Shown here one piece after another: positions 6,177 through 21,001 of a stretch of 64,000 bases of DNA. The notes under the pieces are model-generated. The model searched no databases. It had not been told where the DNA came from and worked only from the letters and a program-made list of their open reading frames with translations. A program made the position numbers and the translations under genes. This DNA comes from Allobrachymonas chironomi DSM 19884. GTDB lineage: Bacteria > Pseudomonadota > Gammaproteobacteria > Burkholderiales > Burkholderiaceae_C. Each line of letters begins with the position of its first letter. Position 1 is the stretch's first letter. Location of the stretch: contig NZ_KB894766.1 in assembly GCF_000374625.1 (NCBI RefSeq), forward strand, positions 248,001-312,000, read 5' to 3'.

Positions 6177-7346
6177 TTACCGGCTCTGCGCCGGTGGCTG
6201 CAGCAGCTGACGGCGCTCGCGCCAGACCCGGCGCACGAAAGGATCTGTCACGGCATACTTGCCATGTCCGGCGCGCGTGACCAGATTGGCCGCCATCATC
6301 TTGTCGACCAGATTCTGCACGTGGGCCGCTTCCACGGAGGTGCCCGCTGTCTGCCTGTAGTGTTCCAGGGCTTCACTACCAAACAGTCCGGACACGCCCT
6401 CTTCCGGGCCTTCCGCGATGCGCGCAAAAATCGCCTCAGCCAGCCCGCCCAGATCGTCCAGCATGCGCAACTCCACATCAGCAGCTGCGCTGGCCAGGGT
6501 GGAGCTAATGACAGGGAAGACGCTATTCGGCTGTTCAGGGTACGCCTGCAACTCCACCAGGGCCTTCAGCAACTCTTCCGGGCGATGTCCCATCAGCTGG
6601 AAGCCGGCGTAGGCCACCTCCGGATCAGGCAGCACGGCCACGTCAGAGGCTGCCACGCGCTGCAGCTGCCAGTCCACGAAGTCCCGGCCCAACACCTCGT
6701 AAGGTGCTATGAGCGCACCCGAGAACGGCTGTGTGCGCCTGGTGGTCATGGCGGTGATCATGGACTTGTGCGAGCCTGTTCCCAGAAAGATGAAGTGGTG
6801 CTTGCCACCCATCCTGGCATTGACCGCATCGCGGGCGGCTTTCAGGGCATGCAGCAGGACCTGGCCGTCTTCGGAAGCCATGGCATGCTGCACTTCGTCC
6901 ACGATCAGCACCACATCCGAGGCAGCCTGCTCCACCAGCTCGACAAAGGCCTGGGCCAGCGTGGCACCGCCCTTGGCACCCAGCGTTTCCAGCGCAAAAC
7001 CAAAGCTCAGCCCGGCCGCGCCCAGATTGAGACTCTTGAGACGCTGCAACAGGCCCGAGCCCGGGGTTTGCAGCTCCTGCAAGGTGGTCCTGACCGCCTC
7101 ATGCACCAGGGCTGCCGGGTTCTTGGACATGTCCGACCAGAGATCGACATAAATCACCACGGCCTTGCGCCGCTCCAGTGCCGGCACCAGATCCTGGCGC
7201 AGGAAGGTGGTTTTGCCGACGCGACGAATACCCGCCAGGAACACCCCGGAGCGGACATTCATCTGCAAGGCGGAAGGGGCCAGCAACTGCTGCGCCATCT
7301 CTTCGGCGTACTGCGTGCGGTGGTAGACGGTGGTGGGTTCCTGCAT
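6177..7346 (-). CDS. P-loop ATPase (AAA/STAND-like) with C-terminal winged helix
   Basis: A 389-aa cytoplasmic ATP-binding protein. The Walker A motif is in FLAGIRRVGKTTFLRQ (about residues 38-48) and Walker B is VVLIVDEVQHA. A sensor-like FLGTGSHKSM and a TRRTQPFSG segment follow, and the last 70 residues look like a winged helix (VDKMMAANLVTRAGHGKYAVTDPFVRR). This layout matches the orphan archaeal-type or MoxR-unrelated ATPases often annotated as 'ATP-binding protein'. The partner is unknown. It lies immediately outside the left attachment site of the genomic island, downstream of the ancestral ychF terminator, and has AT-rich DNA (7360-7400) in front of it that probably holds its promoter. 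Function not assigned. Confidence 0.82.
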   Translation of the reverse strand: MQEPTTVYHRTQYAEEMAQQLLAPSALQMNVRSGVFLAGIRRVGKTTFLRQDLVPALERRKAVVIYVDLWSDMSKNPAALVHEAVRTTLQELQTPGSGLLQRLKSLNLGAAGLSFGFALETLGAKGGATLAQAFVELVEQAASDVVLIVDEVQHAMASEDGQVLLHALKAARDAVNARMGGKHHFIFLGTGSHKSMITAMTTRRTQPFSGALIAPYEVLGRDFVDWQLQRVAASDVAVLPDPEVAYAGFQLMGHRPEELLKALVELQAYPEQPNSVFPVISSTLASAAADVELRMLDDLGGLAEAIFARIAEGPEEGVSGLFGSEALEHYRQTAGTSVEAAHVQNLVDKMMAANLVTRAGHGKYAVTDPFVRRVWRERRQLLQPPAQSR

Positions 7347-7437
7347 TTCGGTGATTTTATTCAGATTGACTAATTATATATTTTGGATAAATTCCTTGAA
7401 TTGTCAAGCCATTCCATCGCAAGCATCACCAGAACGC

Positions 7438-7465
7438 ACAAACCCGCGCCAAAGCACGGGTTTGT
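7438..7465 (-). terminator. Hairpin, probable ancestral ychF terminator
   Basis: A perfect 9-bp inverted repeat, ACAAACCCG (7438-7446) and CGGGTTTGT (7457-7465). No clear T-run follows on the minus strand, so it is a weaker terminator candidate. It lies just outside the left attachment repeat, where the end of ychF would have been before the island entered, which suggests it once terminated ychF. Confidence 0.5.
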
Positions 7466-7479
7466 CGTGGTCAGGCGAA

Positions 7480-7507
7480 AAGAACGCTCAGACGTTAAAC
7501 AAGAAGT
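7480..7507. repeat. Distal attachment site (copy of the ychF 3' end)
   Basis: 28 bp that match 22925-22952 at 27 positions; the only difference is A at 7497 against G at 22942. Read on the minus strand it encodes Phe-Leu-Phe-Asn-Val-stop, the same residues as the ychF C-terminus, with a synonymous change. This is the signature of a site-specific integrant that carries a replacement 3' end for its target gene. Confidence 0.85.
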
Positions 7508-7599
7508 GTGGCATGAAAGCCGCATGGATGCTGGGTGTGCTGGCTTGGCTTGTCATTTCGTACCCGCCGTCATACCCACTTTTGAAGCTCCTTCTCCGG

Positions 7600-7898
7600 T
7601 CATGCCAAAGCCTCGATGACGGCCTGCGGGTTGCGTTCAATCACGTTGAGCAGCACCAGCGCCGGACCGTGCGGGGTGCGGGGTGCGGTCTCCGCGCTCC
7701 CAGTGCCGCAGGGTCGCCGTGGAGAAGCCGAAGCGGGCAGCGAACTGTTCCTGGGTCATGCCCATCTTCCGCACGGACGGCCTTCACGTCGACTTCGCGG
7801 GGACGATGCACGCGCACGCGCACGCCGCGCCCGTCGCCCTTGGCGTGGGCGATGGCTTCTTGCAAGCCCTGCTTGATGCTCTCGAATGCGGTGCTCAT
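7600..7898 (-). pseudogene. Decayed Xre-family antitoxin (HigA/NadS-like)
   Basis: The first 42 or so codons read as a normal antitoxin start (MSTAFESIKQGLQEAIAHAK). The frame is then lost: a helix-turn-helix of the form KMGMTQEQFAARFGFS followed by TLRHWERGDRTP can be read only in another frame, which implies a 4-bp insertion near the VKAVR codons. Further on there is a 7-bp tandem duplication (CCCGCAC) at about 7671-7685, after which a third frame reads LNVIERNPQAVIEALA and stops at 7600. The intact family member would be about 100 aa, repressing its own operon and neutralising a RelE-type toxin. Two frame lesions make function unlikely. Confidence 0.75.
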
Positions 7899-7912
7899 GA
7901 TGTCTTTCCTCT

Positions 7913-7996
7913 CTAGATTTCGACCAACACATCAACCAAGTCGGCCAGGTCGTTGCGCTCGGCCTTGGTCAGGTTGGCCTTGTCGCCCTTGGCAAC
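7913..7996 (-). pseudogene. C-terminal remnant of a RelE/HigB-type toxin
   Basis: Only about 27 codons remain: VAKGDKANLTKAERNDLADL followed by a short acidic tail and a TAG stop. The KxxxANLTxAERxxLxxL pattern is typical of the end of RelE-like mRNA interferases. It stops 15 bp before the antitoxin start, the usual toxin-first order of this TA type. No upstream toxin sequence was recognised, so this is a deletion relic. The stretch 7997-8175 shows nothing else recognisable. Confidence 0.55.
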
Positions 7997-8175
7997 CTGA
8001 GAGCCCGGCGGCGCATCGCGCCGACACGCTCAAGTCGTCCTGAGCACCCACATCCAGGCAAAAAACCCGCACACCGCGCGACGACGAGGATTAGCCGTTA
8101 CGTGTTCCTTGCCATCAACAGGCCGGTCATCGCATTGCAATTGAGGCAGTCATTCCGCACCGGTAATAGCCTGAA

Positions 8176-8853
8176 TCAAACGAACAGCGGGAGATCCTGC
8201 TCTACGAGGCTTATCAACTTTGGAGCGATTTGGCCACTGATCTTGACGGTGCCGTTCGCGGCAAATGAAATTTGCCCTCTCAGTCCACTCAAGACAAGCT
8301 CAAATACTGCAAGCTCGACCTTGTACTTTAGGCCAGCGAGAACTTCCATGTTCTCAACCACCATCCCCTCTTTGGACACGAACTCCATCCGAGCGACGAG
8401 GTCGTCAGCGAGAACTGTACCAATAACCTTCAAGCCTACGAGCTTGGAAGAATCGACCGAATTGAAAACGGAAGAGGGGCGTCCCTTGTCGAATGTCACC
8501 GATTTCGCAGTGAAGCCCATACCCACCAAGGTTTCGAGCGCGTTGAGGAGATCGCGGATATTTCTTCCAGCATTCTCAATTCTCAGGAAGATCAGGCCAT
8601 CCAACTCGATAACCGCAAAATCGGTAAAACTTACGCTTTCTATCTGCTCGTAGGTCGGCGTCCCTTCGGCATCCAGCTTGGTTACGACGACTCGTGATCG
8701 CCAAAGATACCGATAAGAGGCATCGCCACTGGGCGCTCGCGCAAACCCGTAAGCGGATTCAGGCTCGAAAGGGCAGCTGGCGACAATCACCGCCAAATCC
8801 CGAGAGCGGGCTGGCAGTTGAATACAAAACCACCGATACCTGATCTGCATCAT
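8176..8853 (-). CDS. Unknown protein, third gene of a three-gene operon
   Basis: A 225-aa protein that I do not recognise. It starts MMQIRYRWFCIQLPARSRDL and has no transmembrane segment, signal peptide or obvious catalytic motif. The sequence is of mixed alpha/beta character and rich in beta-branched residues, with repeated FELVLSGL and GLKYKVELAVF type strands. The start overlaps the stop of the gene before it (ATGA), so translation is coupled. Codon use is less GC-biased than in the core genome. Its position in the island, beside restriction and signalling defence genes, suggests a defence component; no direct evidence supports a particular activity. Confidence 0.7.
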   Translation of the reverse strand: MMQIRYRWFCIQLPARSRDLAVIVASCPFEPESAYGFARAPSGDASYRYLWRSRVVVTKLDAEGTPTYEQIESVSFTDFAVIELDGLIFLRIENAGRNIRDLLNALETLVGMGFTAKSVTFDKGRPSSVFNSVDSSKLVGLKVIGTVLADDLVARMEFVSKEGMVVENMEVLAGLKYKVELAVFELVLSGLRGQISFAANGTVKISGQIAPKLISLVEQDLPLFV

Positions 8854-9953
8854 TCGCTCCCGGTGTCAGGGCCCTGGAATTCAACTCGGAGCGCCGCAAC
8901 AAGGTCACGAGCCTTCGATTCAATGACCCGCGAGAAAACATCAATTTCATGCTTGTACGGTTGTCGTCGTCGCGTCGAGATTTTCCCCTCTTCGACGGGG
9001 AAGATGCCACTCAAAATGAATGAAAAACCCGTGCAATCCTTGAGATCAGAAAAACCCGCTTCAATGTCGTAGACATTGCCTGCCCCCATGGTCTCGGTTG
9101 CAGTCCACGCCATCTTGATGATGTAGTAATCTTCTTCATCAAGAAGTCCATTCAGGATTTCCGAACGACTGACTCCGTTGCCACGAAGAAAAACTCGTTC
9201 CACATGGGTTTCAGAACCCTCGGCATCCTCTTCCTCTTCGTCCACACCGTCCTGTTCTGGCTTTGCTTTGAATACATACACGTCAGTCACATCACGCCGT
9301 ACAAAGCCAGGCAATGAAATCGCCAGCTCATGAAAGAACTTGGATCGAAGCTTTGCCGACGGAACGTCGAACAACGCAACAACAACCTTGGTCAAGGGCT
9401 CCGAAGTCGACTTCTCCACCTTTGCCAATAGCGTTTCCCTGACTCCGTTCAGGTAGTCGTTCTGCGTATTTCGCACAACATACCCTGCCGGAGATTTGAC
9501 GAACTCAATGGTTCCATCACGAACTTGAACTTGCGAGAACTCGCTGCGCTTGTAATCGATCTGGGAGTATTGAACTCGAATGCTGAGATTGTCGCCCTCT
9601 CGCGTTACTTGCACTGTGTCGCCACTCGCCTCCATTTCTTTCTTCAACTGCTCAACGACGCCTTGCAGTTCGTCGGTATCACTTACCCCCGACACATCCA
9701 TTGACGTTGTGCGCTCACGTCTCGCGACGACCCCAAGTCTGGCCGCAATCTCCTTGTGGTCGTAGTAGTCGTGCGTTAGCGTGGAGAAGTATTTCGCAAG
9801 GTCTTCTCGCGGTGTCTTTTTGCTGACCACGATATTGCGGCGTTGGAACAGCCGAATGACCGTCGGCGTATCAACTTTATGCTGATTCAACGCATCGAAG
9901 ACGTTTTTATCACTCGCGTAATAAAGCGATGGACCATGAGCCCTCTTTTTCAT
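8850..9953 (-). CDS. Unknown protein, second gene of a three-gene operon
   Basis: A 367-aa protein of no family I can name. The N-terminus (MKKRAHGPSLYYASDKNVFD) is followed by a helical region with what may be a small helix-turn-helix (TPTVIRLFQRRNIVVSKKT). The middle has mixed strands and the region near residue 250 is highly acidic (DGVDEEEEDAEGSE). It is soluble by appearance. The ATG at 9953 is chosen over an upstream GTG at 9962 because it makes an ATGA overlap with the preceding gene, as at the next junction. The two 4-bp overlaps indicate a fixed-stoichiometry complex or system. AT-rich relative to the host genes. Confidence 0.7.
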   Translation of the reverse strand: MKKRAHGPSLYYASDKNVFDALNQHKVDTPTVIRLFQRRNIVVSKKTPREDLAKYFSTLTHDYYDHKEIAARLGVVARRERTTSMDVSGVSDTDELQGVVEQLKKEMEASGDTVQVTREGDNLSIRVQYSQIDYKRSEFSQVQVRDGTIEFVKSPAGYVVRNTQNDYLNGVRETLLAKVEKSTSEPLTKVVVALFDVPSAKLRSKFFHELAISLPGFVRRDVTDVYVFKAKPEQDGVDEEEEDAEGSETHVERVFLRGNGVSRSEILNGLLDEEDYYIIKMAWTATETMGAGNVYDIEAGFSDLKDCTGFSFILSGIFPVEEGKISTRRRQPYKHEIDVFSRVIESKARDLVAALRVEFQGPDTGSE

Positions 9954-10942
9954 TCCCGCCACCCCATATCTCCCGGGTTATACGTACTGGTCACGCTTGT
10001 GATTCGTTCGATCTGGATCTTCGCTAGAATTTCTTCACGCGCAGGATCAAACCCCCAGGCCTTTACATACTTCTTTTGTGCCGTGAGAAAGATGGATTTC
10101 AGATCATTGGGTGCGTTTGGGTCAGTGACGCGCAGCAAAATTCGCTCACCGGACTCCAGCATCTGGAACCTCGACAAACTGTCGAGAAAGTATTCGAACT
10201 CTTCTGGACTAGATGCAGGTGCGTTGTAATAGATAATGTAGCCCGCAGTCTGACTCTCCGTTGCGGCGTGCTTGATGATGATATAAGGTGCCGTCAGCGT
10301 CTCTACAGTTGCCGGCTGCGCCCAAACATCGCCCTGTCGGCGTGACATCACCAGATCAGGGTAATAGAACGTATATGTCTGCGGCAGTTCGCCTTCGCCT
10401 TTCAGGCGAAGAACGTCGTTCGCTATGCTGTACAGGCGCTGAATATCATGGGGCCCGAGGTAATGCAGTTGAGTTCCAGGTGCCACTGGAAGTGCTTGCA
10501 GATCGACCTTGTCGATAGCCTCATAAAACGGCTTGTCGTAGCCATTGTCATGATTGTGAACGAATAGCAGCCCACGAACCTCATACGCCTCTGATTCGTC
10601 AACGGAGTATTTTGACCTCCAAGAATCTGAGCCTCGCGCACAGTCAATCGTCATGCACAGTGATTTGAAGGCACTCCGCAATCTAGTAGAGTTAATTGAA
10701 TCAGCGGCGTAGCTCTTTAAATCAGTGTGGAGATAAACCGTCTTGCCTAAATATGGATCTTGGTACAAGAAAACAACATCGCCGGGATGGGTAGCCTTTG
10801 GTTTGCCACCTTCGCCGAGGTGCCTATCATTTGAGCACTCGAAGTTGTCATCCATCTTGGGGTGAATTCCCCACAAGAAATGCTTAAAAATATCCTTTGA
10901 AAGCCTCGGTGCGATTTCACCAATGTTTATTGTCTCCGCCAC
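9950..10942 (-). CDS. Unknown protein, first gene of a three-gene operon
   Basis: About 330 aa, not recognised. With the GTG at 10942 as start it reads MAETINIGEIAPRLSKDIFK, preceded at 4 nt by AGGAGG; the track upstream of this is open but reads through the IS relic and is not protein-like. Notable segments are HPGDVVFLYQDPYLGKTVYL, FVHNHDNGYDKPFYEAIDKV and a C-terminal FLTAQKKYVKAWGFDP. The Asp/His-containing LLFVHNHDNGYDK block could be catalytic, but this is speculation. No membrane segment. It heads the coupled operon of three genes and is separated by about 230 bp from the AlbA_2 gene, so it probably has its own promoter near 10950-11040. Confidence 0.65.
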   Translation of the reverse strand: MAETINIGEIAPRLSKDIFKHFLWGIHPKMDDNFECSNDRHLGEGGKPKATHPGDVVFLYQDPYLGKTVYLHTDLKSYAADSINSTRLRSAFKSLCMTIDCARGSDSWRSKYSVDESEAYEVRGLLFVHNHDNGYDKPFYEAIDKVDLQALPVAPGTQLHYLGPHDIQRLYSIANDVLRLKGEGELPQTYTFYYPDLVMSRRQGDVWAQPATVETLTAPYIIIKHAATESQTAGYIIYYNAPASSPEEFEYFLDSLSRFQMLESGERILLRVTDPNAPNDLKSIFLTAQKKYVKAWGFDPAREEILAKIQIERITSVTSTYNPGDMGWRE

Positions 10943-11041
10943 AACTCCTCCTTCTTGTTTGGCTGCTACGGAGGCTTGAGCACCAGCGACGCCCCCGCCG
11001 GAAATTAGAGCATATTCCACACGTGCGATTGCGCCATGAAG

Positions 11042-11080
11042 TGAATCGACCCGGATCCTGTAGACACCTACGAGCCTCAG
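11042..11080 (+). repeat. Orphan end of the IS3-type element
   Basis: 39 bp starting TGAATCGACCCGGATCCTG, nearly identical and in the same orientation to the left terminal region of the IS at 20939-20977 (differences at only a couple of positions). Similarity stops abruptly after the shared GAGCCTCAG. No transposase or partner end is nearby. It lies in the gap between the AlbA_2 gene and the three-gene operon, where nothing else is recognisable (10943-11171). Confidence 0.75.
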
Positions 11081-11171
11081 GGCGGACGGTTGCCGCTCGA
11101 AAAAGTGACGTGTGCACCTCGGCAGGTTGCTGCGGGCTTGCAGGTGCTTTTTCAGCAAAGCCGCTTTTGAC

Positions 11172-12587
11172 TCACGCGCCCGGATGCGTCTCCAGCCATC
11201 GCCGCCCAAGGGCCGTCAGGCGGTAACGCTGCTTGCTGCTGCGCGGCTTGTCGGGCAGGGTCATTTCCACTAGGCCTGATCCGAGGGCTGGCAGCAGGTA
11301 GGCTTTGCGGAAGTGCTCGTCGTTTTTGAGTGCCAACCCCTCCTGCAGTTCTTGGCGGGACATCTCCCCAACCAGCACCCGTAGCACGCGCTCAACTTCC
11401 GTGGTGACTTCCGTGGTGACTTCCGTGGTGACTTCCATGGTGCTCATCACCGGCCTCGGAATCACTGCCCTGAACTCATTGCCCGCCACATCATCCACCA
11501 GCCGGGTTTCCGGCCAGTCTTGCAGCACGCGCGGGATGCCGGTGCCGATGCCTCGGTACGGCAGGATGCTGATCGCGTGATGGGTCAAGGTGGGGTTGCG
11601 CCGGTTCGACTTGCCCTGCCGAATTTGCTCCGTACTCAGGCTGTCGGGCAGATGGCCAGGGCTGATGATCTCGATGCGATCGGCAAAAATCAGCAAACGA
11701 ACCGAGGCGCTGGTGAAGTAGTCACGGTGGATCAGCGCGTTGACCAGCAATTCGATGATGGCCTGTTCCGGCACTTCCAGCAGGCCCAGGGAGTTGAAAT
11801 TCTGGTCACGCTGGACATGGTGCAGGTTGCGCTTGATAAACCCCAGGCTGCGCTGGTACTGCTCCAACAGCGTGCCGTCGATGTCTTCGCTGTCCAGATA
11901 GTGGTGACTGGCCAGTGACGTGCCGGGGAAGGCCACGGCCTTGACCATGAACGCAGGCCGGTAACGCTGCGGGTGCTTGCCAAACAGCAGCACGCCCGCG
12001 AGGTTCAGCTCCTGCCCGTCACCCAATCCGATGTTTTGCAAGGCCTGCTGCAAAGGTTGGTCGGGCAACTGGCCGTAGCGCCGATTGAAGTAGTCGTTGA
12101 ACGCCTTTTCGTCGATGTCGGCGGCGCAGGTGCCTTCCACCGGAATCACATCGGCGTAGATCAACCCGGAGCGCTGGAACAAGCGCTGGATTTCCTCCCG
12201 CGCCGTGACGTGGCGCTTGTCCGAGCCACTCTTGACCCAGATGCGCCCCTGGCTATCCAGGTAAGGCTTGCTCAGGCCATTGGGCACAGTGACGGCGATC
12301 ACGATGCCTTGCGCCGTCTGGATGTTCTCGGTGGTCGGATGAACCGGCGGGCGAACGTTCTGCGACGCGGCATTCGAGATCAGCTGGTTCAAGCGGCGCA
12401 CGTTGACCGCGTCCAGCCCGGTCACCTTGCCGTTGTCGTCCACGCCCAGCAGCAACAGGCCGCCGCCGCTGTTGGCGAACGCAGCCAGTTCCGCCGCGAT
12501 GCTGTCGGCGTTGGTCTCGTCGCGCTTGAACTGGTGGCGGCTGTCTTCGCCGCGCGCGAGAATCGACAGAAGTTCAGCCTCGTTCAT
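11172..12587 (-). CDS. AlbA_2 (Schlafen-type) / ATP-binding HATPase_c_4 protein
   Basis: A 471-aa protein with an N-terminal AlbA_2 domain (about residues 5-130: EDSRHQFKRDET, ELAAFANSGGGLLLLGVDD and a later IWVKSGSDKRHVTAREE). A GHKL-type ATPase region follows (IIELLVNALIHRDY and a DRIEIISPGHLPDSL block, about 255-315), and a winged-helix C-terminus (RSSKQRYRLTALGRRWLE). This is the layout of COG2865 'putative transcriptional regulator' proteins, often found beside defence genes; AlbA_2 is related to Schlafen nucleases. A 12-bp tandem repeat encodes (TTEV)n between the last two domains. It is the last gene of the long defence operon, starting 6 bp after the TIR-like gene. Confidence 0.88.
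   Translation of the reverse strand: MNEAELLSILARGEDSRHQFKRDETNADSIAAELAAFANSGGGLLLLGVDDNGKVTGLDAVNVRRLNQLISNAASQNVRPPVHPTTENIQTAQGIVIAVTVPNGLSKPYLDSQGRIWVKSGSDKRHVTAREEIQRLFQRSGLIYADVIPVEGTCAADIDEKAFNDYFNRRYGQLPDQPLQQALQNIGLGDGQELNLAGVLLFGKHPQRYRPAFMVKAVAFPGTSLASHHYLDSEDIDGTLLEQYQRSLGFIKRNLHHVQRDQNFNSLGLLEVPEQAIIELLVNALIHRDYFTSASVRLLIFADRIEIISPGHLPDSLSTEQIRQGKSNRRNPTLTHHAISILPYRGIGTGIPRVLQDWPETRLVDDVAGNEFRAVIPRPVMSTMEVTTEVTTEVTTEVERVLRVLVGEMSRQELQEGLALKNDEHFRKAYLLPALGSGLVEMTLPDKPRSSKQRYRLTALGRRWLETHPGA
11395..11442. repeat. 12-bp in-frame tandem repeat, four copies
   Basis: Three identical copies of ACTTCCGTGGTG and a fourth with a single G-to-A change, all inside the AlbA_2 gene. Each unit adds the four residues T-T-E-V to a linker, so copy-number change would alter linker length without breaking the frame. 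Confidence 0.9.
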
Positions 12588-12593
12588 TCGAGA

Positions 12594-13094
12594 TCATCTC
12601 TTGGTACTCGCATCCTCAATTGCCTTCATCAACGCGGCGTGCTCCCACTTCACGGCTTTGCAGCCGTTCTGCTGAAACGCCGGAGGCATGTTGGCTGGGG
12701 TCTTGTCGCCCTTGTAAACGCCGACGACGCCTTTTCCTCGTTTGACGCTTTCCTCGATCTCCCAGTTCACCCACTTGCTGGAGGCCGTCTTGTCGGAGAG
12801 GTAAACCACCGTCACCGAGCAGCGGTCAATCTTCTCGCGGATTTGCCGCTTGATGTAGTCGGCATTGGTGCTGTCGAAGGGTTCTTTCACCGAGTGGTCG
12901 TCGAACTGCAAATCCACCTTGTCGTTCTTCGCTTGCCCACGAAACAGATTCACTTCGTTCAAATCTTCGTGATCGAAGCTGATGAAAACGTGTCGGCTGC
13001 TGTCGTTCTTTGCTGCCGTGAGTTTCTGCTTCACCCGTTCTTCAAGGCTCTTGATGTCAGAGCCATACAACCCGCCGCCAGTGCTTCCGCCCAT
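12594..13094 (-). CDS. TIR-like (ThsB-type, DUF1863) protein with Gly-rich N-terminus
   Basis: A 166-aa protein of the TIR-like family that includes ThsB of Thoeris (Pfam TIR-like, PF08937). The core starts at about residue 34 with HVFISFDHED; a VKEPFDSTNADYIKRQIREK block and VTVVYLSDKTASSKWVNWEI follow, including W108 and the likely catalytic-region Glu112. TIR proteins of this type sense phage and make ADP-ribose-derived signals. The N-terminus is striking: MGGSTGGGLYGSD, so Met removal exposes Gly-Gly. The start at 13094 lies one base after the stop of the QueC-like gene; a longer in-frame start is within that gene and unlikely. Family call is strong, enzymatic activity is inference. Confidence 0.88.
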   Translation of the reverse strand: MGGSTGGGLYGSDIKSLEERVKQKLTAAKNDSSRHVFISFDHEDLNEVNLFRGQAKNDKVDLQFDDHSVKEPFDSTNADYIKRQIREKIDRCSVTVVYLSDKTASSKWVNWEIEESVKRGKGVVGVYKGDKTPANMPPAFQQNGCKAVKWEHAALMKAIEDASTKR

Positions 13095-13095
13095 G

Positions 13096-13689
13096 TCATT
13101 TCTCCTCGTCGAATTGAAACTCCAAGCAGGCGATGCACCGTCCGCAAGGTTCTGAATTTCCGGTGTGGCACGAGTAGGTGCCGGTGATGCCTTTGCCTTG
13201 TGCGAGCCGGACAACATCCGCCTTCCCGAACTCGATCAAAGGCGCCAGCACCTTGATATGCCGCCCCATCGCGGTAGCGATAGTGGCTTCAGCCTGCATC
13301 ACGAACTGTGGTTTTTGATCGGGGAACAGACTGAACTCCTCGGCCAGCAGGCCGATGGCTACCGCCGATGCACCCTGTTGATAGGCATACGCGCTACCCA
13401 TCAACAAGAACATCAGGTTGCGGCCTGGAGTGAAGGCATCGGTCTTGATGTCCAGTTCTTTGCGGGTCAGGCCAGATGCAATGACATGCCCGAACCCTGA
13501 CAAATCCATACGCACCGGCACAGGAAGCCCCAAAGCTTCGTGGACGAGCTTGCAGGTTTCCCATTCCTTGCGAGCTGCCCGCTGACCGTAGTCGATGAAC
13601 AGCGGGAAGTGCTCGATGCCTTCTTCCTTCGCCAATACACCGATGAGCGTCGAATCAAGGCCACCGGAAACCAAGCTCACGAAACTCAT
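13096..13689 (-). CDS. QueC-like (7-cyano-7-deazaguanine synthase family) enzyme, type IV CBASS Cap9-like
   Basis: A 197-aa PP-loop ATPase of the QueC/ExsB family. The ATP-binding motif SGGLDST is at residues 8-14, the conserved GRNLMFL follows in the middle, and the zinc site is intact with Cys174, Cys182, Cys185 and Cys188 (CX7CX2CX2C). QueC proper makes preQ0 for queuosine, but no other queuosine genes are present. Instead it overlaps the OGG-like gene by ATGA and is followed by the TIR-like gene. The context is the QueC, TGT and OGG set of type IV CBASS. From memory, related enzymes in CBASS and Qat systems attach a 7-deazaguanine to a protein N-terminal glycine; I infer a similar job here. 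Confidence 0.9.
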   Translation of the reverse strand: MSFVSLVSGGLDSTLIGVLAKEEGIEHFPLFIDYGQRAARKEWETCKLVHEALGLPVPVRMDLSGFGHVIASGLTRKELDIKTDAFTPGRNLMFLLMGSAYAYQQGASAVAIGLLAEEFSLFPDQKPQFVMQAEATIATAMGRHIKVLAPLIEFGKADVVRLAQGKGITGTYSCHTGNSEPCGRCIACLEFQFDEEK

Positions 13690-14402
13690 ATGAACGCCTC
13701 CTTCTTGGCCACGCGCATGGTCAGCCACGTTGCCAGATCGACGCAGCCAACCGAATGGCCGAACTCGGCCGCAATCTCCCGAAAGGTGTCCTCGATTTCC
13801 TCGTAGAACGACAGATGTCCAAGCTTGCTGGAAGACAGCGACAAACCACGCGCCAGTTGCAAATAGTCCAGCACATGAACGTCCAGCACAGCAAGGTCGG
13901 CGCAATAGTCCACACGCCGCAGGAATAAACTGGCCTGTTTGGGGCCGAAGCCCCAAACGTGCTGTGTCAGGGTTTCTCGGGCTTCCCTTGCGCTTTCGGC
14001 ATCGAACAAGAATCCACGGATCGTTCGGGACTGTCCATAAATCTCGACGATAGTCGTGGCAAGGAGGGATGCCAGCCGGTTCTTGAAACGTGGCCGCGCC
14101 CACCGCTGCGTTCCATCGCCCTTGGGCATGGGCAACGGATCGGACAGAGCCTCAACCACCTTCCGCTCGATGACTTCCACGCTTCTGCCGCGTGGCGCGG
14201 GCTGGAGCAACCTCCGTTCGCGCAGCCGATCCGCCGTTGCTATAGCCATCTCGAACACCATCTGGCTGCCGAAAATACAAACCGCCGCTTCGTACAGCAA
14301 TTCTTCTTCCGTCATCAATCGCCAGTTCTGCATGGCCGACGCATGGGACTTGACCTCAAGGCACATCTCACGAATGGTCTGGTTGATGATGGCAACAGTC
14401 AT
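13686..14402 (-). CDS. OGG-like HhH DNA glycosylase/lyase, type IV CBASS Cap11-like
   Basis: A 238-aa protein of the HhH-GPD superfamily that resembles archaeal Ogg2 and OGG1 enzymes. The helix-hairpin-helix reads WGFGPKQASLFLRRV with the catalytic-position Lys155, and the Asp174 in LAVLDVHVLDYL is 19 residues further, the spacing seen between the catalytic Lys and Asp of OGG1. So the active site looks intact. In type IV CBASS a protein of this kind accompanies the QueC-like and TGT-like proteins. Both ends overlap neighbours by 4 bp (ATGA), so the three are translated as a unit. Whether it acts on a modified base in DNA or on a modified protein is unknown. Confidence 0.85.
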   Translation of the reverse strand: MTVAIINQTIREMCLEVKSHASAMQNWRLMTEEELLYEAAVCIFGSQMVFEMAIATADRLRERRLLQPAPRGRSVEVIERKVVEALSDPLPMPKGDGTQRWARPRFKNRLASLLATTIVEIYGQSRTIRGFLFDAESAREARETLTQHVWGFGPKQASLFLRRVDYCADLAVLDVHVLDYLQLARGLSLSSSKLGHLSFYEEIEDTFREIAAEFGHSVGCVDLATWLTMRVAKKEAFI

Positions 14403-15382
14403 GGCTGGCTCCAGCCTGCAACATCGGCGATGTATCGAAACGCACGAGGAGAAAGATTGGAACGGCAGAATTCGTTCAGTCGGCCTTGGCCTGCCGCGTC
14501 ACGCAGTCTTCGCATCCAGTCGGCGAAGAACTCAAGGTTGTGGGCAAGTGTGCGTGCTTGAAATGACAAGCTGGCATCGTCGCCCCATGCCGTTTGTCCG
14601 GCAAAAAAATCGGCTTGTGAAAGGTGATAGAGCAAGCCTGTTTCATGATCAACCACCGTTTGGCACCACTCCAACCCGTCGAAGCTGTCGGCGCCCATTG
14701 CCGAATACAACCCGATGGAGATGGGGTTGCCTGTGCCCAGCAGATGTAGAACGACGTAGCGCCCGAGTTCGTTCAGCGCTGCCCGGATGGTCTGCACAGC
14801 ACGGGCGCGATCAAGAATTCCGTCACCGAGTCGGCGTTCTGGAACCGCCACCATCGTGACGCCGGTTTCAGCGGCGACCGCCGCACACAGCGCGGGCAAT
14901 TCATTTGCCGAGGCGTGGACGATTGGGACGATCTGGCAGGAGCCTGCTGCGGCTTGATCCGCTCGCCAGCGCTCCACGATCAAAGCAACGTGCTCGTCCG
15001 CATTCGCTGGCGGCTGTTGCTCATCGAAGCCGAAGGCCAGGTCACAAGGGAATTTCCTCAACATCTTGTGAAAGTCGGCCTGTTTCCAGTCCGACTGCGC
15101 ATCCTTCCAGAAGCTTTCGTAATTGCCGGAATCCATCAAGGTAACGATTCCTGCCTGACGAGCAGATGCCAGCGCATCGCGCGCCGGCTGTGGTTGCTCG
15201 ATGCCAGCCAGATCAAAGGCCGACACGAGAAACTGACCTTTCAATCTGCCCAGTGATGACAAGAGTTGCAAATACTCCTGCGGGCGCAGTGCCGTCTTGA
15301 CGGAGGAGATGGAAGGAAAATACACGGGTAACGGCAGAACCCGTGTTCCGACGGTCAACCCAGTAGGACGCGCGACAGTCAT
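14399..15382 (-). CDS. tRNA-guanine transglycosylase-like protein, type IV CBASS Cap10-like
   Basis: A 327-aa divergent relative of TGT. The DSG of the catalytic Asp loop is retained (TLMDSGNYESFW, Asp84), and a central LHLLGTGNPISIGLYSAMGAD resembles the TGT barrel core. A later Asp is present (SFDGLEW), and the C-terminal HNLEFF and GRLNEF match the end of TGT, including the zinc-site His. The three zinc-binding cysteines of TGT (CxCxxC) are absent. This is expected for Cap10-type proteins that handle a protein partner rather than tRNA. The ATG at 15382 gives a TGATG overlap with the SLATT gene; a GTG at 15385 is an alternative. Confidence 0.85.
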   Translation of the reverse strand: MTVARPTGLTVGTRVLPLPVYFPSISSVKTALRPQEYLQLLSSLGRLKGQFLVSAFDLAGIEQPQPARDALASARQAGIVTLMDSGNYESFWKDAQSDWKQADFHKMLRKFPCDLAFGFDEQQPPANADEHVALIVERWRADQAAAGSCQIVPIVHASANELPALCAAVAAETGVTMVAVPERRLGDGILDRARAVQTIRAALNELGRYVVLHLLGTGNPISIGLYSAMGADSFDGLEWCQTVVDHETGLLYHLSQADFFAGQTAWGDDASLSFQARTLAHNLEFFADWMRRLRDAAGQGRLNEFCRSNLSPRAFRYIADVAGWSQP

Positions 15383-15876
15383 CACGCGCCCTCCGGCCTC
15401 TGTACCGTGGCAATACGCCTTGTGTCATTGAACCAGTTGGCGTGCTCGGTTGAGACGTGCTCCTCGACCCTTTCCGCCAGTGCGACCAACCGCTCCGGTT
15501 CGGCCAAGCCCTTGTAGGGGCCAGCGCCGGCGAGGAACAGATATTTTTCGTGCTTGAGCCGTTCGGCAGTAGCGCGGTACATCACCCACAGCGTTGAATA
15601 CTGATTCATCTGCTGTACAGCCTCCAGCACAGCGATCAGCGCCCCCGCGATGGAAGCCGTCCATTTGGCACATTCCGCAGGTAGCAGGCTGGTCACTGGA
15701 ATCAGGACAGCCAGCGCGATTTGAGTGAACTTCAGGTTCTTGAACCATCGTTGGCAATACCGGCTCTTGCCGTCATACCAGTTCAACTGATCGATGAGGC
15801 GAAACCATGCGGGATGCGCCCGCACTGATTCCGGGATGGGTGGTTCCTGCGGCGTTGTGTTCTTGTCGTTGCTCAC
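15382..15876 (-). CDS. DUF4231 / SLATT-type two-transmembrane protein (putative effector)
   Basis: A 164-aa protein starting with GTG after a good AGAGGTGG ribosome-binding site. Two hydrophobic helices are visible at about residues 47-66 (FTQIALAVLIPVTSLL) and 72-88 (TASIAGALIAVLEAV), with long soluble flanks, the layout of SLATT (SMODS and SLOG associating two-TM effector) domains, to which DUF4231 is related. Such proteins are predicted to form membrane pores when a nucleotide or other signal arrives, killing the infected cell. It begins 10 bp after the methylase gene and overlaps the TGT-like gene, so it belongs to the same operon. The pore-forming role is inference from the family. Confidence 0.78.
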   Translation of the reverse strand: MSNDKNTTPQEPPIPESVRAHPAWFRLIDQLNWYDGKSRYCQRWFKNLKFTQIALAVLIPVTSLLPAECAKWTASIAGALIAVLEAVQQMNQYSTLWVMYRATAERLKHEKYLFLAGAGPYKGLAEPERLVALAERVEEHVSTEHANWFNDTRRIATVQRPEGA

Positions 15877-15886
15877 GATTCCACCT

Positions 15887-18154
15887 CTACGGGGTTGGTG
15901 AAGAAAACACCCGCTCCAGCGTCGCGGGCAGCAGGGCGGCGTTGGCGGTGCGGATGGCGGCGTGCTTGGCTTTGAGTGCGGTGACCTCGGCTTGCAGGCG
16001 GACGAAGGATTGCTGGATGGGCAAAGGCGGAACGGGAACTTCAATGGCCTCCAGGTTGGTGGCAATCAGCGTGCGGTTGCGCGCAGCGGTACCGGGCGAG
16101 GCCGCATAGACCTTGGCAAACCCTTCGTCCGTCATGAAGTAGTAGGCAAGAAATCCCGGAACCGCCTTCGCCCGGTCTGCAACACAGGTCAGCATTCTGT
16201 GATTGCCAACACAGCCATGGTCTTCCGATTTGGCAAGAGCGATGCCCTGTTCCCACGCCATGATGTTGCTGAAGATCAGGTCACCCTCTTCCACGCGAAA
16301 CATCTTTTGCCAAGTGAACTCCGAGCCTGCGACCGTGCGGCGATGGAACGTGCCTTTGTAAAAACTCCGCACTCCCAGTTCGGTGTAGCTGACTTCCAGA
16401 TCGATCGCCACCTCGCGCCGCACCAGCGGGGCGACTTCGGACATGGGCCGCAGCGGGGCGTTTGCAATGGCGTCGCGGAAACTCACGGCGAGAAGCAAAT
16501 CGCCATCAGTCTCGATTGACTCCAAGTTTTCCTTTATGACTTGGATTTTCTTGGCAAGTGAACGAAGCCGAAGCAAAGTCGAGTCATCACCGATACCAAA
16601 CGACAAGTTGACGTCGGTGGTCGTGAATAGTCTTGAAATCTCGTCCTCGCGCTTAAAGATTCGTTCAATGACTTCGGACGGAGCCACATCCTCTAAAGAG
16701 CGTCTTGCATTCGGGTTCTTGCGATCGAGGTTGTAGCCGCTGGCGGCAATGTCGGCGGCGCTGACCTGCCAGGCTTGGGCGTTTTCTTTCCGCGCGTTCC
16801 ACCACGCCAGCACGGGCGCGAATTCGTCGAACTGCAAGGGCGCGGTCTTGCTGTACTTCTTGCGGCCTTCGGGCAGCGGCAGTTCGTAGTACCAGATGGT
16901 CTCGGTTGGCCCGCCGCGCTCGAAGAACAGCAGGTTGGCCGGGATGTCGGTGTAGGGCGCGAAAACGCCTTGCGGCAGGCGCACGATGGTGTGCAGCTTG
17001 AATTCCTTGAGCAGCTCGGCCTTGATGACGGCCGCAACGCCGTCGCCGAACAGGGTGCCGTTGGGCACGACCACTGCTGCGCGGCCACCATGTACGGCGG
17101 CCTTTTTCCCCTTCACAGGGGCGCCCGCCACGCGCAGCTTGCGCATGATGTATTGCAGGAACAGCAGCGCGGTTTCTGCCGTTTGCATGTTCGGCGGAAA
17201 GTTGGCCTTGATGCCCGCCTCTTCCTCGCCGCCGAAGGGTGGGTTGGTGAGGATCACGTCCACGCGCTCGTCGTGACCGATTTCAGTAATGCGCCGCTCC
17301 AGCGTGTTGCCGTAGGCGATCTGCGGCGCTTCCAACCCGTGCAGCAGCAGGTTCATCTGCGCCAGCATGTAGGGTAGCGGCTTGGCTTCCTGACCAGCGA
17401 GCGTGTCACGCTGCAGGGTGCGGCGTTGCTCGGTGGTGGTGACCTGGGCGTTGAGGTGGTCGAAGGCTTCGACCAGAAAACCGCCGGTGCCGCAGGCGGG
17501 GTCAAGCACAGTGTCGCTCAGGTGCGGGTTGGTCACCTGCACCATGAAGCGCACCACGGGGCGCGGAGTGTAGAACTCGCCGCTGTCGCCCGCCGCGTCG
17601 CGCATTTCGCGCAGCATGGATTCGTACAGATGCGAGAGGGTGTGGATTTCCTCGCTGGCGTTGAAGTGGATGCCGTTGATCTTGTTGACGATGTCGCGCA
17701 GCAGATAGCCGCTGACCATGCGGTTTTGCACACCCTTGAACACGTTTGCAATGACTTCGCGCTGGCTGCCTTTTTCACCCTGGCCCGCCAGGGCGCGTAG
17801 ATACGCGAACAGGCCCTGGCCCACGCTGCCGTCGGCGCGGTGGGTGCGTTCCTGCCCGATGAAGTCCAGCAGTTCGTCTCCGGTGATGCCGTCTTCGCGC
17901 GCGGCCCAGTCGCGCCAGCGGTAGGGCGCTTCGATGATGGGCTGGTAGCGCTTGCCGTCGAGTGCGGCTTCCTGTTCGTGCTTGAATTCAAGATCGTCGA
18001 GGAACTTGAGAAACATCACCCAGGTGAGCAGAGGCAGGCGATCCACGTCGCCGTTGAGGCCTTTGTCCTTGCGCAAAATCTTGCGTGCGCTGCCAATCAA
18101 TGCGGAGAGATTGTCGCGGGTGGTGAGCGGGGTTTTGCTTTTGGCTTTTGCCAT
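15887..18154 (-). CDS. Type I restriction-modification fused methyltransferase-specificity protein (HsdM-HsdS)
   Basis: A 755-aa fusion. Residues 1 to about 500 are an N6-adenine methyltransferase: an HsdM N-terminal helical domain (MFLKFLDDLE), the SAM motif DPACGTGGF and the catalytic NPPF in ILTNPPFGGEEE. The last 240 residues are an HsdS-like region with one target-recognition domain (SYTELGVRSFYKGTFHRRT, IFSNIMAWEQGIALAKS, VPPLPIQQSF) and a C-terminal coiled coil. A single recognition domain implies that two molecules pair to read a symmetric site. No separate HsdS gene exists. It starts 15 bp after hsdR stops. Length and motifs show no lesion, so the modification enzyme should be active. 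Confidence 0.93.
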   Translation of the reverse strand: MAKAKSKTPLTTRDNLSALIGSARKILRKDKGLNGDVDRLPLLTWVMFLKFLDDLEFKHEQEAALDGKRYQPIIEAPYRWRDWAAREDGITGDELLDFIGQERTHRADGSVGQGLFAYLRALAGQGEKGSQREVIANVFKGVQNRMVSGYLLRDIVNKINGIHFNASEEIHTLSHLYESMLREMRDAAGDSGEFYTPRPVVRFMVQVTNPHLSDTVLDPACGTGGFLVEAFDHLNAQVTTTEQRRTLQRDTLAGQEAKPLPYMLAQMNLLLHGLEAPQIAYGNTLERRITEIGHDERVDVILTNPPFGGEEEAGIKANFPPNMQTAETALLFLQYIMRKLRVAGAPVKGKKAAVHGGRAAVVVPNGTLFGDGVAAVIKAELLKEFKLHTIVRLPQGVFAPYTDIPANLLFFERGGPTETIWYYELPLPEGRKKYSKTAPLQFDEFAPVLAWWNARKENAQAWQVSAADIAASGYNLDRKNPNARRSLEDVAPSEVIERIFKREDEISRLFTTTDVNLSFGIGDDSTLLRLRSLAKKIQVIKENLESIETDGDLLLAVSFRDAIANAPLRPMSEVAPLVRREVAIDLEVSYTELGVRSFYKGTFHRRTVAGSEFTWQKMFRVEEGDLIFSNIMAWEQGIALAKSEDHGCVGNHRMLTCVADRAKAVPGFLAYYFMTDEGFAKVYAASPGTAARNRTLIATNLEAIEVPVPPLPIQQSFVRLQAEVTALKAKHAAIRTANAALLPATLERVFSSPTP

Positions 18155-18169
18155 CGGGTTGGGGTCTTC

Positions 18170-20566
18170 TTATTGGTAGAGCGCGGTCTGTAGCCGAGTG
18201 ACGGCCTCACGCATCGCAGGCACGCCGCCGAAGTGGCGGGTGGCGATCTCGGCGGGGGAGCCATAGCGGTCAAAGGGTTGCACCTTCATCAGCTCGGACA
18301 GCGCATTGAATTGGATGATGCCGCGCTCAATGTAGCGGTCGAGCAGCAGCGTGAGGATTTCACGGGCCGTATCGCCATACTGTGCGAACAGGTCTTGGGT
18401 TTGGCGCTTGGCAGCTTCGGCGCGCTGACGGCGCGTGCGCAGTGGCGCGTTCCACGCCAGGTGGCACAGCAGGTCGAAGGGGTCGGCGTCAGGCTGTTCG
18501 CTGCTAGAGGCCAGTTCCTCAAAGCTGATGCCGCGCTCGGTCAACTCACGCAGCACCTCGGCGCGGGTGTCCGGGTTGGCCCATTTGGATTGCAGCGCTT
18601 CGCGCGTGGGATAGAGCGTGCGCAGGGCACGGCCCGAATAGTCGGTGTACTTGACGACCTGGAGCTTCTTGCCGTCAGTGTCGAGGTCATAGACCAGATG
18701 GCCAATGACCTCGACTTCGCCGCCGTCGATGTAGAACTTGCGCGGCTCGGGCGGTGGCTCGCCGACCAGATGACCGGTGCCGGGGCCGATCTGCTCCTCG
18801 GGCAAGGGATACTTGGTTTCTTCCGGCGGTTCTGGCTCGGTGGCGGTTGCGCCGGTCTGCTCGCCTGCTTCGTTGACCGTCACCACCTCTATGCGCGCCG
18901 GGTCGCCGTCGAAATCCGGATCGGCGAAGTGCTGGGTGGCGGTGCCGGTGAAGTCGATGATGTTGAAGTATTCCTTGCCATAGTCCACCTTGAGCCGGGT
19001 GCCGCGCCCGATGATCTGCTTGAACTCGGAGCGCGAGCCGACCACGCGGGCCAGCACCACGTTCTTGACCATCTCGGCATCGACGCCGGTGGTCAGCAAC
19101 TGCGAGGTGGTGAGGATGACGGGCGTGGTCTTGTCCACGTCCTGAAAATCGGCCAGATGCGCCAGGCCAATGTCGCCCTCGTCGGCGGTGACGCGGCAGA
19201 CGTAGTTGGCGTACTGCTGCACCAGGTCGCTGTTGAGGTTGATGAGCTCCTGCCGCATCTCGGCGGCATGCTCCTGATCGACACAGAATACCAGCGTCTT
19301 GGCGAAGCGGTCGGTGCCCTTGAGCAGGTCGGTCAGGTGACGGGCCATAGCCTTGGTGCGGGCGCGCAGCGCGACGACGCGCTCAAAGTCCTTGGTCTGG
19401 TATTCGTCGTCGGGCACCTCGCGGCCATAGCGGTCGAGTTCGTCCTTGCTGGGCCGCCAGCCCGCAGCGTCCACGGTGGTGATGACGCGATGCACGCGGT
19501 ACGGGGCGAGAAAGCCGTCCTCAATGCCTTGGCGCAGGCTGTATGTATAGACGGGGTTGCCGAAGTATTCGTAGCTGTCGCGCGATTCTTCGCGCAGCGG
19601 CGTGGCTGTCATGCCGAACTGCACGGCGGGCGCGAAGTAGTCCAGCACCACGCGCCAGGAGCTTTCATCGCGGCTGGAGCCGCGATGGCATTCGTCGATG
19701 ATGATGAGGTCGAAAAAGTCCGGCCGGTACTGGCGGAACACGTCGGCGTTGGCGGTGGCCAGCGCCTGATAGATGCCGAAGTACATGTCTCGGCTCTGGC
19801 TGGTGTCGCCGCCGCTGATCTTGTGCCGGGCGTCGCCAAAGGGCGCGAACATCTTGGCCATCGGGTCATCGACCAGGATGTTGCGGTCGGCGAGGAACAG
19901 GATTTTTGGGCGGCGGTACTCGCCGGTTCGGTTCCAGCGGCTGTTCCACAGCTTCCAGCAAACCTGGAAGGCCACATTGGTCTTGCCCGTGCCAGTGGCC
20001 AGCGTGGCGAGGATGCGCTTCTGCCCCAGCAGGATGGCCTCGATCACGCGCTGGATGGCGATGCGCTGGTAGTAGCGCGGCACCTTGCCGGAGACCAGGT
20101 TGAAGGGTTCCAGCAGGTGCTTGGTTCCATCCTGCGGCAGGTGCGCGGCGCTGGTCAGGCGGGCGAACAGCTCATCCGGCGTGGCGTAGCGATCCACCTC
20201 TCTCTCGGTGCCCGTGGTGTAGTCGATTTCGATGATGCGATGACCGTTGGTTGCGTAGGCGAACTTGAGGCCGAGGATTTCGGCGTACTCGCGTGCCTGC
20301 TGCACGCCGGTTTCAGCAGGCAAACCAACCTCCTTGGCTTCCACCACGGCCAGCGGGTAGTCGCGGCGGTAGTACAGCAGGTAGTCGGCGCGCTTTTGCT
20401 GGCCGCGCCGCACCTTGCCGCCCGCCACGATGATGCGGCCGTTGGTGAAACTGCGCTGCTCGCCGATGGCGTGAGGGGCAGTGCCCCAGCCCGCCTCGAC
20501 CAGCCTGGGCGTGACGAATTCGCGGCAGGTGTCCGCCTCGGTGATCACTCCGTCTCGCATCGCCAT
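18170..20566 (-). CDS. hsdR: Type I restriction enzyme R subunit
   Basis: A 798-aa restriction subunit that, with the HsdM-HsdS fusion, cuts unmodified DNA after ATP-driven translocation. The nuclease core is visible at the start (ADYLLYYRRDYPLAVVEAKE, a D...ExK motif). Helicase motifs follow: Walker A LATGTGKTN, DECHRG, MTATP and QIIGRGTRLK. The length fits the EcoEI-type class. The start at 20566 follows the small regulator gene by 7 bp. An alternative ATG two codons in (MRDGV) is possible. The enzyme looks intact. Its partner genes lie directly downstream, and the same transcript seems to continue into the SLATT, TGT, OGG, QueC and TIR genes. Confidence 0.95.
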   Translation of the reverse strand: MAMRDGVITEADTCREFVTPRLVEAGWGTAPHAIGEQRSFTNGRIIVAGGKVRRGQQKRADYLLYYRRDYPLAVVEAKEVGLPAETGVQQAREYAEILGLKFAYATNGHRIIEIDYTTGTEREVDRYATPDELFARLTSAAHLPQDGTKHLLEPFNLVSGKVPRYYQRIAIQRVIEAILLGQKRILATLATGTGKTNVAFQVCWKLWNSRWNRTGEYRRPKILFLADRNILVDDPMAKMFAPFGDARHKISGGDTSQSRDMYFGIYQALATANADVFRQYRPDFFDLIIIDECHRGSSRDESSWRVVLDYFAPAVQFGMTATPLREESRDSYEYFGNPVYTYSLRQGIEDGFLAPYRVHRVITTVDAAGWRPSKDELDRYGREVPDDEYQTKDFERVVALRARTKAMARHLTDLLKGTDRFAKTLVFCVDQEHAAEMRQELINLNSDLVQQYANYVCRVTADEGDIGLAHLADFQDVDKTTPVILTTSQLLTTGVDAEMVKNVVLARVVGSRSEFKQIIGRGTRLKVDYGKEYFNIIDFTGTATQHFADPDFDGDPARIEVVTVNEAGEQTGATATEPEPPEETKYPLPEEQIGPGTGHLVGEPPPEPRKFYIDGGEVEVIGHLVYDLDTDGKKLQVVKYTDYSGRALRTLYPTREALQSKWANPDTRAEVLRELTERGISFEELASSSEQPDADPFDLLCHLAWNAPLRTRRQRAEAAKRQTQDLFAQYGDTAREILTLLLDRYIERGIIQFNALSELMKVQPFDRYGSPAEIATRHFGGVPAMREAVTRLQTALYQ

Positions 20567-20897: not shown

Positions 20898-21001
20898 CCA
20901 AGGAGTCCTGATGGAAATAGTGGACTCTGAATTTTATCTGAATCGATCCGGATCCTGTAGACACCTGCGAGCCTCAGAATTGAGGCCTGACAGGAGGTGC
21001 C

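Follow-up and report, generated by a model that had tools for sequence, protein, structure and literature searches.

The window, meaning the whole 64,000-nucleotide stretch of DNA analysed here, carries an operon on the (-) strand in the order hsdR-hsdM-SLATT-TGT-OGG-QueC-TIR, with the following features:

18170..20566, (-): HsdR, type I restriction subunit (Pfam ResIII, 2.2e-35; EcoEI_R_C, 3.3e-32).
15887..18154, (-): HsdM, type I restriction-modification methylase (Pfam N6_Mtase, 1.4e-63).
15382..15876, (-): SLATT/DUF4231 membrane protein, 164 aa, proposed effector, with an inferred GTG start (Pfam, NCBIfam).
14399..15382, (-): TGT-like (Cap10-like) protein, proposed reader of the tagged N-terminus (PDB sequence and structure matches, PADLOC).
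13686..14402, (-): OGG-like HhH protein, 238 aa (Pfam Ogg-HhH, 6e-19).
13096..13689, (-): QueC-like (Cap9-like) protein, 197 aa, proposed ligase (Pfam QueC, PDB matches, active-site residues).
12594..13094, (-): ThsB-like TIR protein, 166 aa, candidate acceptor of an N-terminal deazaguanine (Pfam, fold, homologues).
13065..13094, (-): N-terminal tail of the TIR protein, MGGSTGGGLY, residues 1–10, with a Met-Gly-Gly start and predicted to be disordered (homologues, pLDDT).

Upstream of the QueC-like gene, the SLATT, TGT-like and OGG-like genes run in the same direction with overlapping ends (the ATG of the TGT-like gene at 15382 overlaps the preceding stop, and a GTG lies one codon upstream, at 15385), followed without overlap by hsdM, on the same strand and 10 bases before the SLATT gene, and hsdR. 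The OGG-like protein contains GPKQAS and AVLDVH motifs, and a Lys and an Asp, the residues expected of a bifunctional glycosylase, occur in all 75 aligned OGG-like homologues, the window row not being among them. The C-terminal part of HsdM is, in our reading, HsdS-like. The SLATT protein matches Pfam DUF4231 (3.3e-25) and SLATT_1 (1.9e-10) as well as NCBIfam SLATT_1 (2.3e-34), and SLATT proteins have been predicted to be nucleotide-responsive pore-forming effectors (prediction cited in PMC7159879).

Translation of 13094..12594 (-) gives a protein of 166 aa with the N-terminus MGGSTGGGLYGSDIKSLEE, confirming the sequence-only reading that it begins Met-Gly-Gly-Ser-Thr-Gly-Gly-Gly (MGGSTGGG). 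The further claim, that the QueC-like gene lies directly upstream with a one-base gap, is borne out by the coordinates: a single base separates the TIR ATG from the TGA of the QueC-like gene (13689..13096, (-)). The TIR protein matches Pfam ThsB_TIR (E 1.6e-24), and the top PDB folds for its AlphaFold model are a B. cereus TIR and ThsB. Within this model residues 1–10 have a mean pLDDT of 44, and are followed by a helix (residues 11–30) and the TIR core from about residue 34. Glu112, in the motif WVNWE, is kept in 84 of 85 homologues, the remaining row being gapped.

To set the window among its relatives, 84,980 species genomes were scanned using a QueC alignment without the ATP-loop region as bait, and the best 80 of 127 relatives were kept; these 80 genomic loci, one viral locus (L089), four plasmid loci and the window make up a set of 86. 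In 85 of the 86, QueC is accompanied by an intact TIR gene, whose start lies anywhere from 26 bases before to 21 bases after the end of QueC; the sole locus with a broken TIR gene is L074. The sequence-only reading had proposed checking whether homologues with this gene order keep the Gly-Gly start, and they do: of the 85 intact TIR genes that immediately follow a QueC of this clade, 84 begin with MGG, and the only exception, L069, begins Met-Ala-Gly. All four GGN codons are in use for Gly2 and Gly3 across the rows, indicating that it is the residues that are kept, not the DNA. Position 4 is Gly or Ser in most rows (MGGS in the window), and the tail residues after MGG vary. Start codons are inferred only; an extra ATG directly precedes MGG in several loci (e.g. 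L042, L073 and L075), longer in-frame starts are possible in many, and the TIR of L088 has a GTG start. Specifically, the count of 84 takes the ATG of L077, and a nearest-start rule gives 83 because a TTG sits nine bases before that MGG ATG.

The 30 best ThsB_TIR loci from 299 Pseudomonadota genomes served as a control, of which 23 (29 frames) were matched by a model of the studied TIRs and seven were not. All four frames adjoining a QueC of this clade, one of them the window, start with MGG. In these sampled Pseudomonadota, none of the 25 frames that do not adjoin such a QueC has MGG in frame; they include a second TIR from a locus with the system. Within the same 86 loci, none of the 39 other TIR matches has MGG. 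A count of 84 of 85 after QueC, against 0 of 25 and 0 of 39 elsewhere, places the MGG start beyond chance. Many of the loci are close relatives, so the counts do not represent independent events.

The neighbouring QueC-like protein matches Pfam QueC with an E of 1.5e-40, and its PDB sequence matches are QueC (2pg3 and 3bl5) and Cap9 (9nto, E 4.5e-13). A housekeeping role was rejected, because a second, stronger QueC is encoded elsewhere in the genome. The canonical QueC proteins score 76.9 and 76 bits in the PDB sequence search, versus 52.7 bits for Cap9, which lends some support to the idea that the enzyme makes a small molecule (preQ0, an amido-deazaguanine or a derived nucleotide) as a signal or substrate for the TIR, TGT-like and OGG-like proteins, the Gly tail being a mere flexible linker. 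The same idea gains from the TIR, TGT and OGG folds all being known to act on N-glycosidic bonds. However, a linker does not need Met-Gly-Gly at the very start, where it stays while the following residues vary; TIRs away from QueC lack MGG; and the source genome already possesses the stronger QueC. We regard a small-molecule product as improbable.

The motifs of QueC have been described (PMC13329287), and each place in SGGxDS, YGQ, RN, the Asp of the CDG (7-carboxy-7-deazaguanine) site, a Lys and four Cys is kept in 85 or 86 of the 86 QueC proteins. Retention of the ATP-loop and zinc residues argues for catalysis, and hence against a non-covalent guard complex in which QueC and the TGT-like protein simply hold the TIR Gly tail without modifying it; a conserved Gly tail beside two proteins able to clamp it would suit such a complex, but we give it very little credence. 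In the nucleobase site, the Asp at the Watson–Crick edge is kept in all 86, whereas the nucleobase-stacking Tyr is replaced by Phe, and the Cys of YPDC by Gln, in all 86. The equivalent contacts in Cap9 are Tyr115 and Asp117, with Thr/Thr in QatC (PMC13279940), and the Y131F variant of E. coli QueC is only partially active (PMC13329287). A QueC tree (unrooted, 28 of the 86 rows used) places the clade in one group (96/94). Together with two Cap9 sequences, which form a separate clade, it is split in this tree from 16 other QueC (98/95); L143, counted as canonical among the 16, lacks YPDC.

The proposed reader was compared with Cap10, a TGT-family protein remodelled to bind a tagged N-terminus (PMC11996544). 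The PADLOC TGT model matches the window TGT-like protein at 2.6e-20, and Cap10 (9ntn) is its sole PDB sequence match at E 0.001. The predicted model (pLDDT 93.4) has as its best structural match 9ntn_A, the Cap10 chain of a Cap10–CdnD complex, with a Z of 28.1, an rmsd of 2.9 and 289 aligned residues, the next match being a tRNA enzyme (24.7). When the PADLOC TGT model was used as bait in 398 Pseudomonadota genomes at E 1e-6, five of the six matches were this operon, each with an MGG TIR (one being the window), and no cyclase was seen beside any of the six. The sixth match, in G081, was not counted as a system, no QueC or TIR being present within the 12 kb fetched. This draw and the ThsB_TIR draw overlap, and four of the five operon genomes are therefore the same in both.

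The proposal that the TIR protein is a target of deazaguanylation thus finds support in the 84 of 85 MGG starts, in the TGT-like protein resembling Cap10 and in a QueC that has the substrate Asp of Cap9; neither the modification itself nor control of TIR activity by it has been shown. We infer that the neighbouring QueC very probably modifies the TIR at its N-terminus, most likely by deazaguanylation, and that the modified end is read by the Cap10-like protein.

Deazaguanylation would depend on a supply of CDG. The source genome encodes a QueD-family gene in addition to the second QueC. Of the 80 hosts, 50 were searched for the QueD family (37 whose contigs are named or finished, plus 13 of MAG type picked for their diversity), and it is present in 45; the family, PF01242, also covers QueD relatives, and QueE was outside the search. 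Two hosts without it (L022 and L035) keep a strong second QueC, and four with it (L024, L046, L062 and L071) have no strong second QueC. Among the 50, only L037, L074 and L087 show neither, which leaves the CDG supply there uncertain; the TIRs of L037 and L087 are intact. As a separate observation, the broken TIR of L074 lies after a QueC end at 8510, in the host that likewise lacks both. These three hosts, the Phe and Gln replacements in all 86 QueC proteins, and the distinct substrate proposed for QatC (PMC13279940) would all fit conjugation of another acid, or of a phage-supplied base, to Gly2 of the TIR in place of host-made CDG. The Watson–Crick-edge Asp, which is Thr in QatC, is nonetheless kept throughout, a Cap10-like protein is encoded in 84 of the 86 loci, and most hosts tested carry the QueD family, so another substrate seems unlikely, and CDG remains the substrate that we favour.

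Family models across the 86 loci identified QueC in 86, TIR in 86 (counting the broken one), TGT in 84, OGG in 83 and any SLATT in 60. The conserved unit extends beyond the QueC and TGT of the sequence-only reading to the OGG-like protein (83/86), SLATT (60/86) and a TIR::TGT fusion (43/86). Two architectures recur. In the first, that of the window, a small SLATT precedes a plain TGT; the small-SLATT model matches in 26 loci, 25 of them without the fusion and 14 with hsdM or hsdR matches, and the hsd genes may belong to the module in loci of this type. The second has TIR and TGT fused in one open frame (43 loci), with hsd genes in none of the 43 and a PfkB-like kinase in 37, and often with a larger SLATT, a second TIR lacking the tail and a TPR-S/TRAF-binding-like protein. 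Glu occupies the expected place in 40 of 41 rows of the fused TIR, a count that leaves out the HsdS-like row L024. The remaining loci have a plain TGT with a larger SLATT, or are cut by contig ends. In L033, L037, L048, L065 (cluster c11), L073, L075, L078 (c12, c13) and L129, additional genes accompany TPR-S proteins; they include alpha/beta-hydrolases and, in L129, a trypsin-like peptidase (Pfam was run on examples only), and are possibly alternative effectors.

The closest known system is type IV CBASS, in which the Cap9 QueC and Cap10 TGT accompany a CD-NTase with MGGS, often with a 2TM/SLATT effector. Its CD-NTases carry an N-terminal MGGS, removal of Met exposes Gly2 and Cap9 modifies Gly2 (PMC13279940); CBASS cyclases are reported to be deazaguanylated, and the same has been inferred of QatB (PMC11996544, PMC13279940); and QueC has been listed under qatABCD and type IV CBASS (PMC10952713). 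The operon shares with type IV CBASS a QueC-like protein, a Cap10-like TGT, a partner with an MGG tail and a SLATT protein; the window thereby has both the Cap10-type TGT and the MGGS partner of that system. In the unrooted tree this QueC clade and Cap9 are split together from the 16 other QueC, as separate clades, and by PDB sequence score the window QueC is closer to canonical QueC than to Cap9. The cyclase tail MGGSGGGFF is similar to the window TIR tail. On a plasmid of the cyanobacterium Pseudanabaena (L121, 5932-9005), the PADLOC type IV CBASS models for QueC, TGT, cyclase and 2TM effector match an operon whose cyclase has the N-terminus MGGSGGGFFSNSDI, its beginning, as set beside the TIR tails, being MGGSGGGFFSNSDITKELREAEAQ. 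For the CdnD of 9ntn/9nto the alignment runs from GGSFGSGFDPRDISRQVRDAEKKL, and the L015 TIR tail, MGGSSGGSFDSSDIKRLEERAKQKL, looks like the cyclase tails.

In a model built from 85 TIR tails, two type IV cyclase tails outscore all 4319 background N-termini, and each scores above all 500 of its own shuffles. Resemblance beyond the glycine run was rejected: it is lost when the run is removed, after which 74 and 125 of the 4319 background tails score as well. In a per-sequence shuffle test, 56 of the 85 TIR tails fall at ≤2 of 200 shuffles, against 7 of 85 without the glycine run.

Other features differ from type IV CBASS. The tailed protein is a ThsB-like TIR in the place of the cyclase, and no SMODS/nucleotidyltransferase was found by Pfam scan among the 12 window genes at 6177-20566, a result limited to the window. 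The nucleobase site has Phe in place of Tyr and Gln in place of Cys, an OGG-like gene is present in nearly every locus, and half of the loci fuse a TIR to the TGT-like protein; no OGG-like gene is annotated beside the L121 CBASS operon, the one such operon looked at. Because the cyclase is absent, the operon is not type IV CBASS, although tagging would work alike in the two. Like qatABCD, it sets a member of the QueC family next to a protein whose N-terminus bears a Gly motif; QatB carries MGTS, and the motif is essential in Qat (PMC13279940). However, the partner here is a TIR and not QatB (for which there is no Pfam model; PMC13329287), all 86 QueC proteins have Phe and Asp where QatC has Thr/Thr, and at 197 aa the window QueC has no room for the QatC extensions; neither the QatA ATPase nor the QatD TatD nuclease family was detected among the 12 window genes scanned with Pfam. 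The link to Thoeris is the TIR, a ThsB-family member in both sequence and fold, but here the TIR has an N-terminal tail and tagging genes, whereas ThsB-family frames away from QueC lack the tail; no ThsA-type effector (SIR2, SLOG or macro) was found among the 12 window genes scanned, and a SLATT is present. We found no paper describing an operon that combines a TIR with deazaguanylation, subscription papers and most preprints being outside our coverage, and the available portions of PMC13279940 and PMC13329287 mention neither TIR nor Thoeris nor SLATT.

We consider it likely that the operon encodes immunity and that the protein-tagging machinery of type IV CBASS here serves a TIR enzyme. Defence itself is inferred, with no defence assay, from the neighbours and the families, and on that basis the operon is probably an immune system. 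As to the chemistry, which is also inferred, the host queuosine pathway would supply CDG, and after Met removal the QueC-like enzyme would use ATP to join it by an amide bond to the Gly2 amino group of the TIR. The TGT-like protein, with its tRNA-base-exchange fold, would then bind the tagged tail and place the TIR in a regulated complex. The trigger and output are more conjectural: infection may be sensed, perhaps through the OGG-like protein, upon which the TIR would act on NAD+, either making a nucleotide signal or depleting NAD+, with the SLATT membrane protein as the presumed and likely effector. What the tag does to the TIR is likewise a matter of inference. In the fusion architecture, the reader carries a TIR domain of its own, and two TIR domains would therefore meet when the tag is read.

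On balance, we favour the broader view that this is a widespread type of immune system in which deazaguanylation acts as a portable tag, the writer/reader pair having moved from a cyclase to an NAD+-acting TIR, and in which, where the reader is TIR-fused, tag reading assembles or blocks a TIR–TIR pair. This suggests that the tag may be a movable control device for more than one kind of immunity. If a TIR does share this tail, writer and reader, the tag would rank as a regulatory module used generally in bacterial immunity. Its role could then be studied in a small enzyme whose activity is easily followed as NAD+ turnover.

According to genome records, most of the best-80 loci lie in Proteobacteria, with MAG loci also in Acidobacteria, Planctomycetota, Nitrospira, Chlorobiaceae, Bacteroidia, Sulfurovum/Sulfurimonas, Pelotomaculum/Clostridiales, Poribacteria and others, where binning may be wrong. 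The TIR version occurs in 5 of the 398 Pseudomonadota genomes, that of the window included. Whether the TIR, the OGG-like or the TGT-like protein was the query, plasmid searches returned the same 13 records, namely 10 near-identical Rhizobium, 2 Agrobacterium and 1 Neorhizobium, four of which were used as loci. The TIR search gave 25 records in total, the 13 at about 50% identity being this system by record name; of the 12 weaker records one was examined (L008), and its TIR starts MPTRRVF beside a DUF4231 gene with no QueC annotated. Viral contigs scanned with the TIR alignment yielded 104 pattern matches and no relative, and tblastn of the TIR in phage records gave 16 records that match part of the TIR domain and in no case reach 80% of the query. 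With QueC, the viral contigs yielded two loci, one a fragment, and the Cap9 of the cyanobacterial plasmid as bait recovered only that same fragment. In viral contig L128 (1-926), an OGG-like gene accompanies a QueC frame whose similarity to QueC ends after about 90 residues, and phage-like genes come next.

Downstream of the operon, a gene with Schlafen AlbA_2 and Fic-like C-terminal domains (11172-12587, (-)) starts six bases after the TIR gene; this family was not seen among the gene clusters common to the related loci. Three further genes (8176-11209, (-)) match PADLOC Hp1 and Hp2 strongly and Hp3 weakly, and the Hp1-matching protein also matches the GapS4a antiphage family, though weakly and below the cutoff. 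The restriction–TIR island is bounded by a 39-nt direct repeat (20939-20977 and 11042-11080, 95% alike), one copy of which adjoins what we read as an IS3-type transposase-like frame, while the other stands by itself in the stretch separating the Schlafen/AlbA gene from the next operon.
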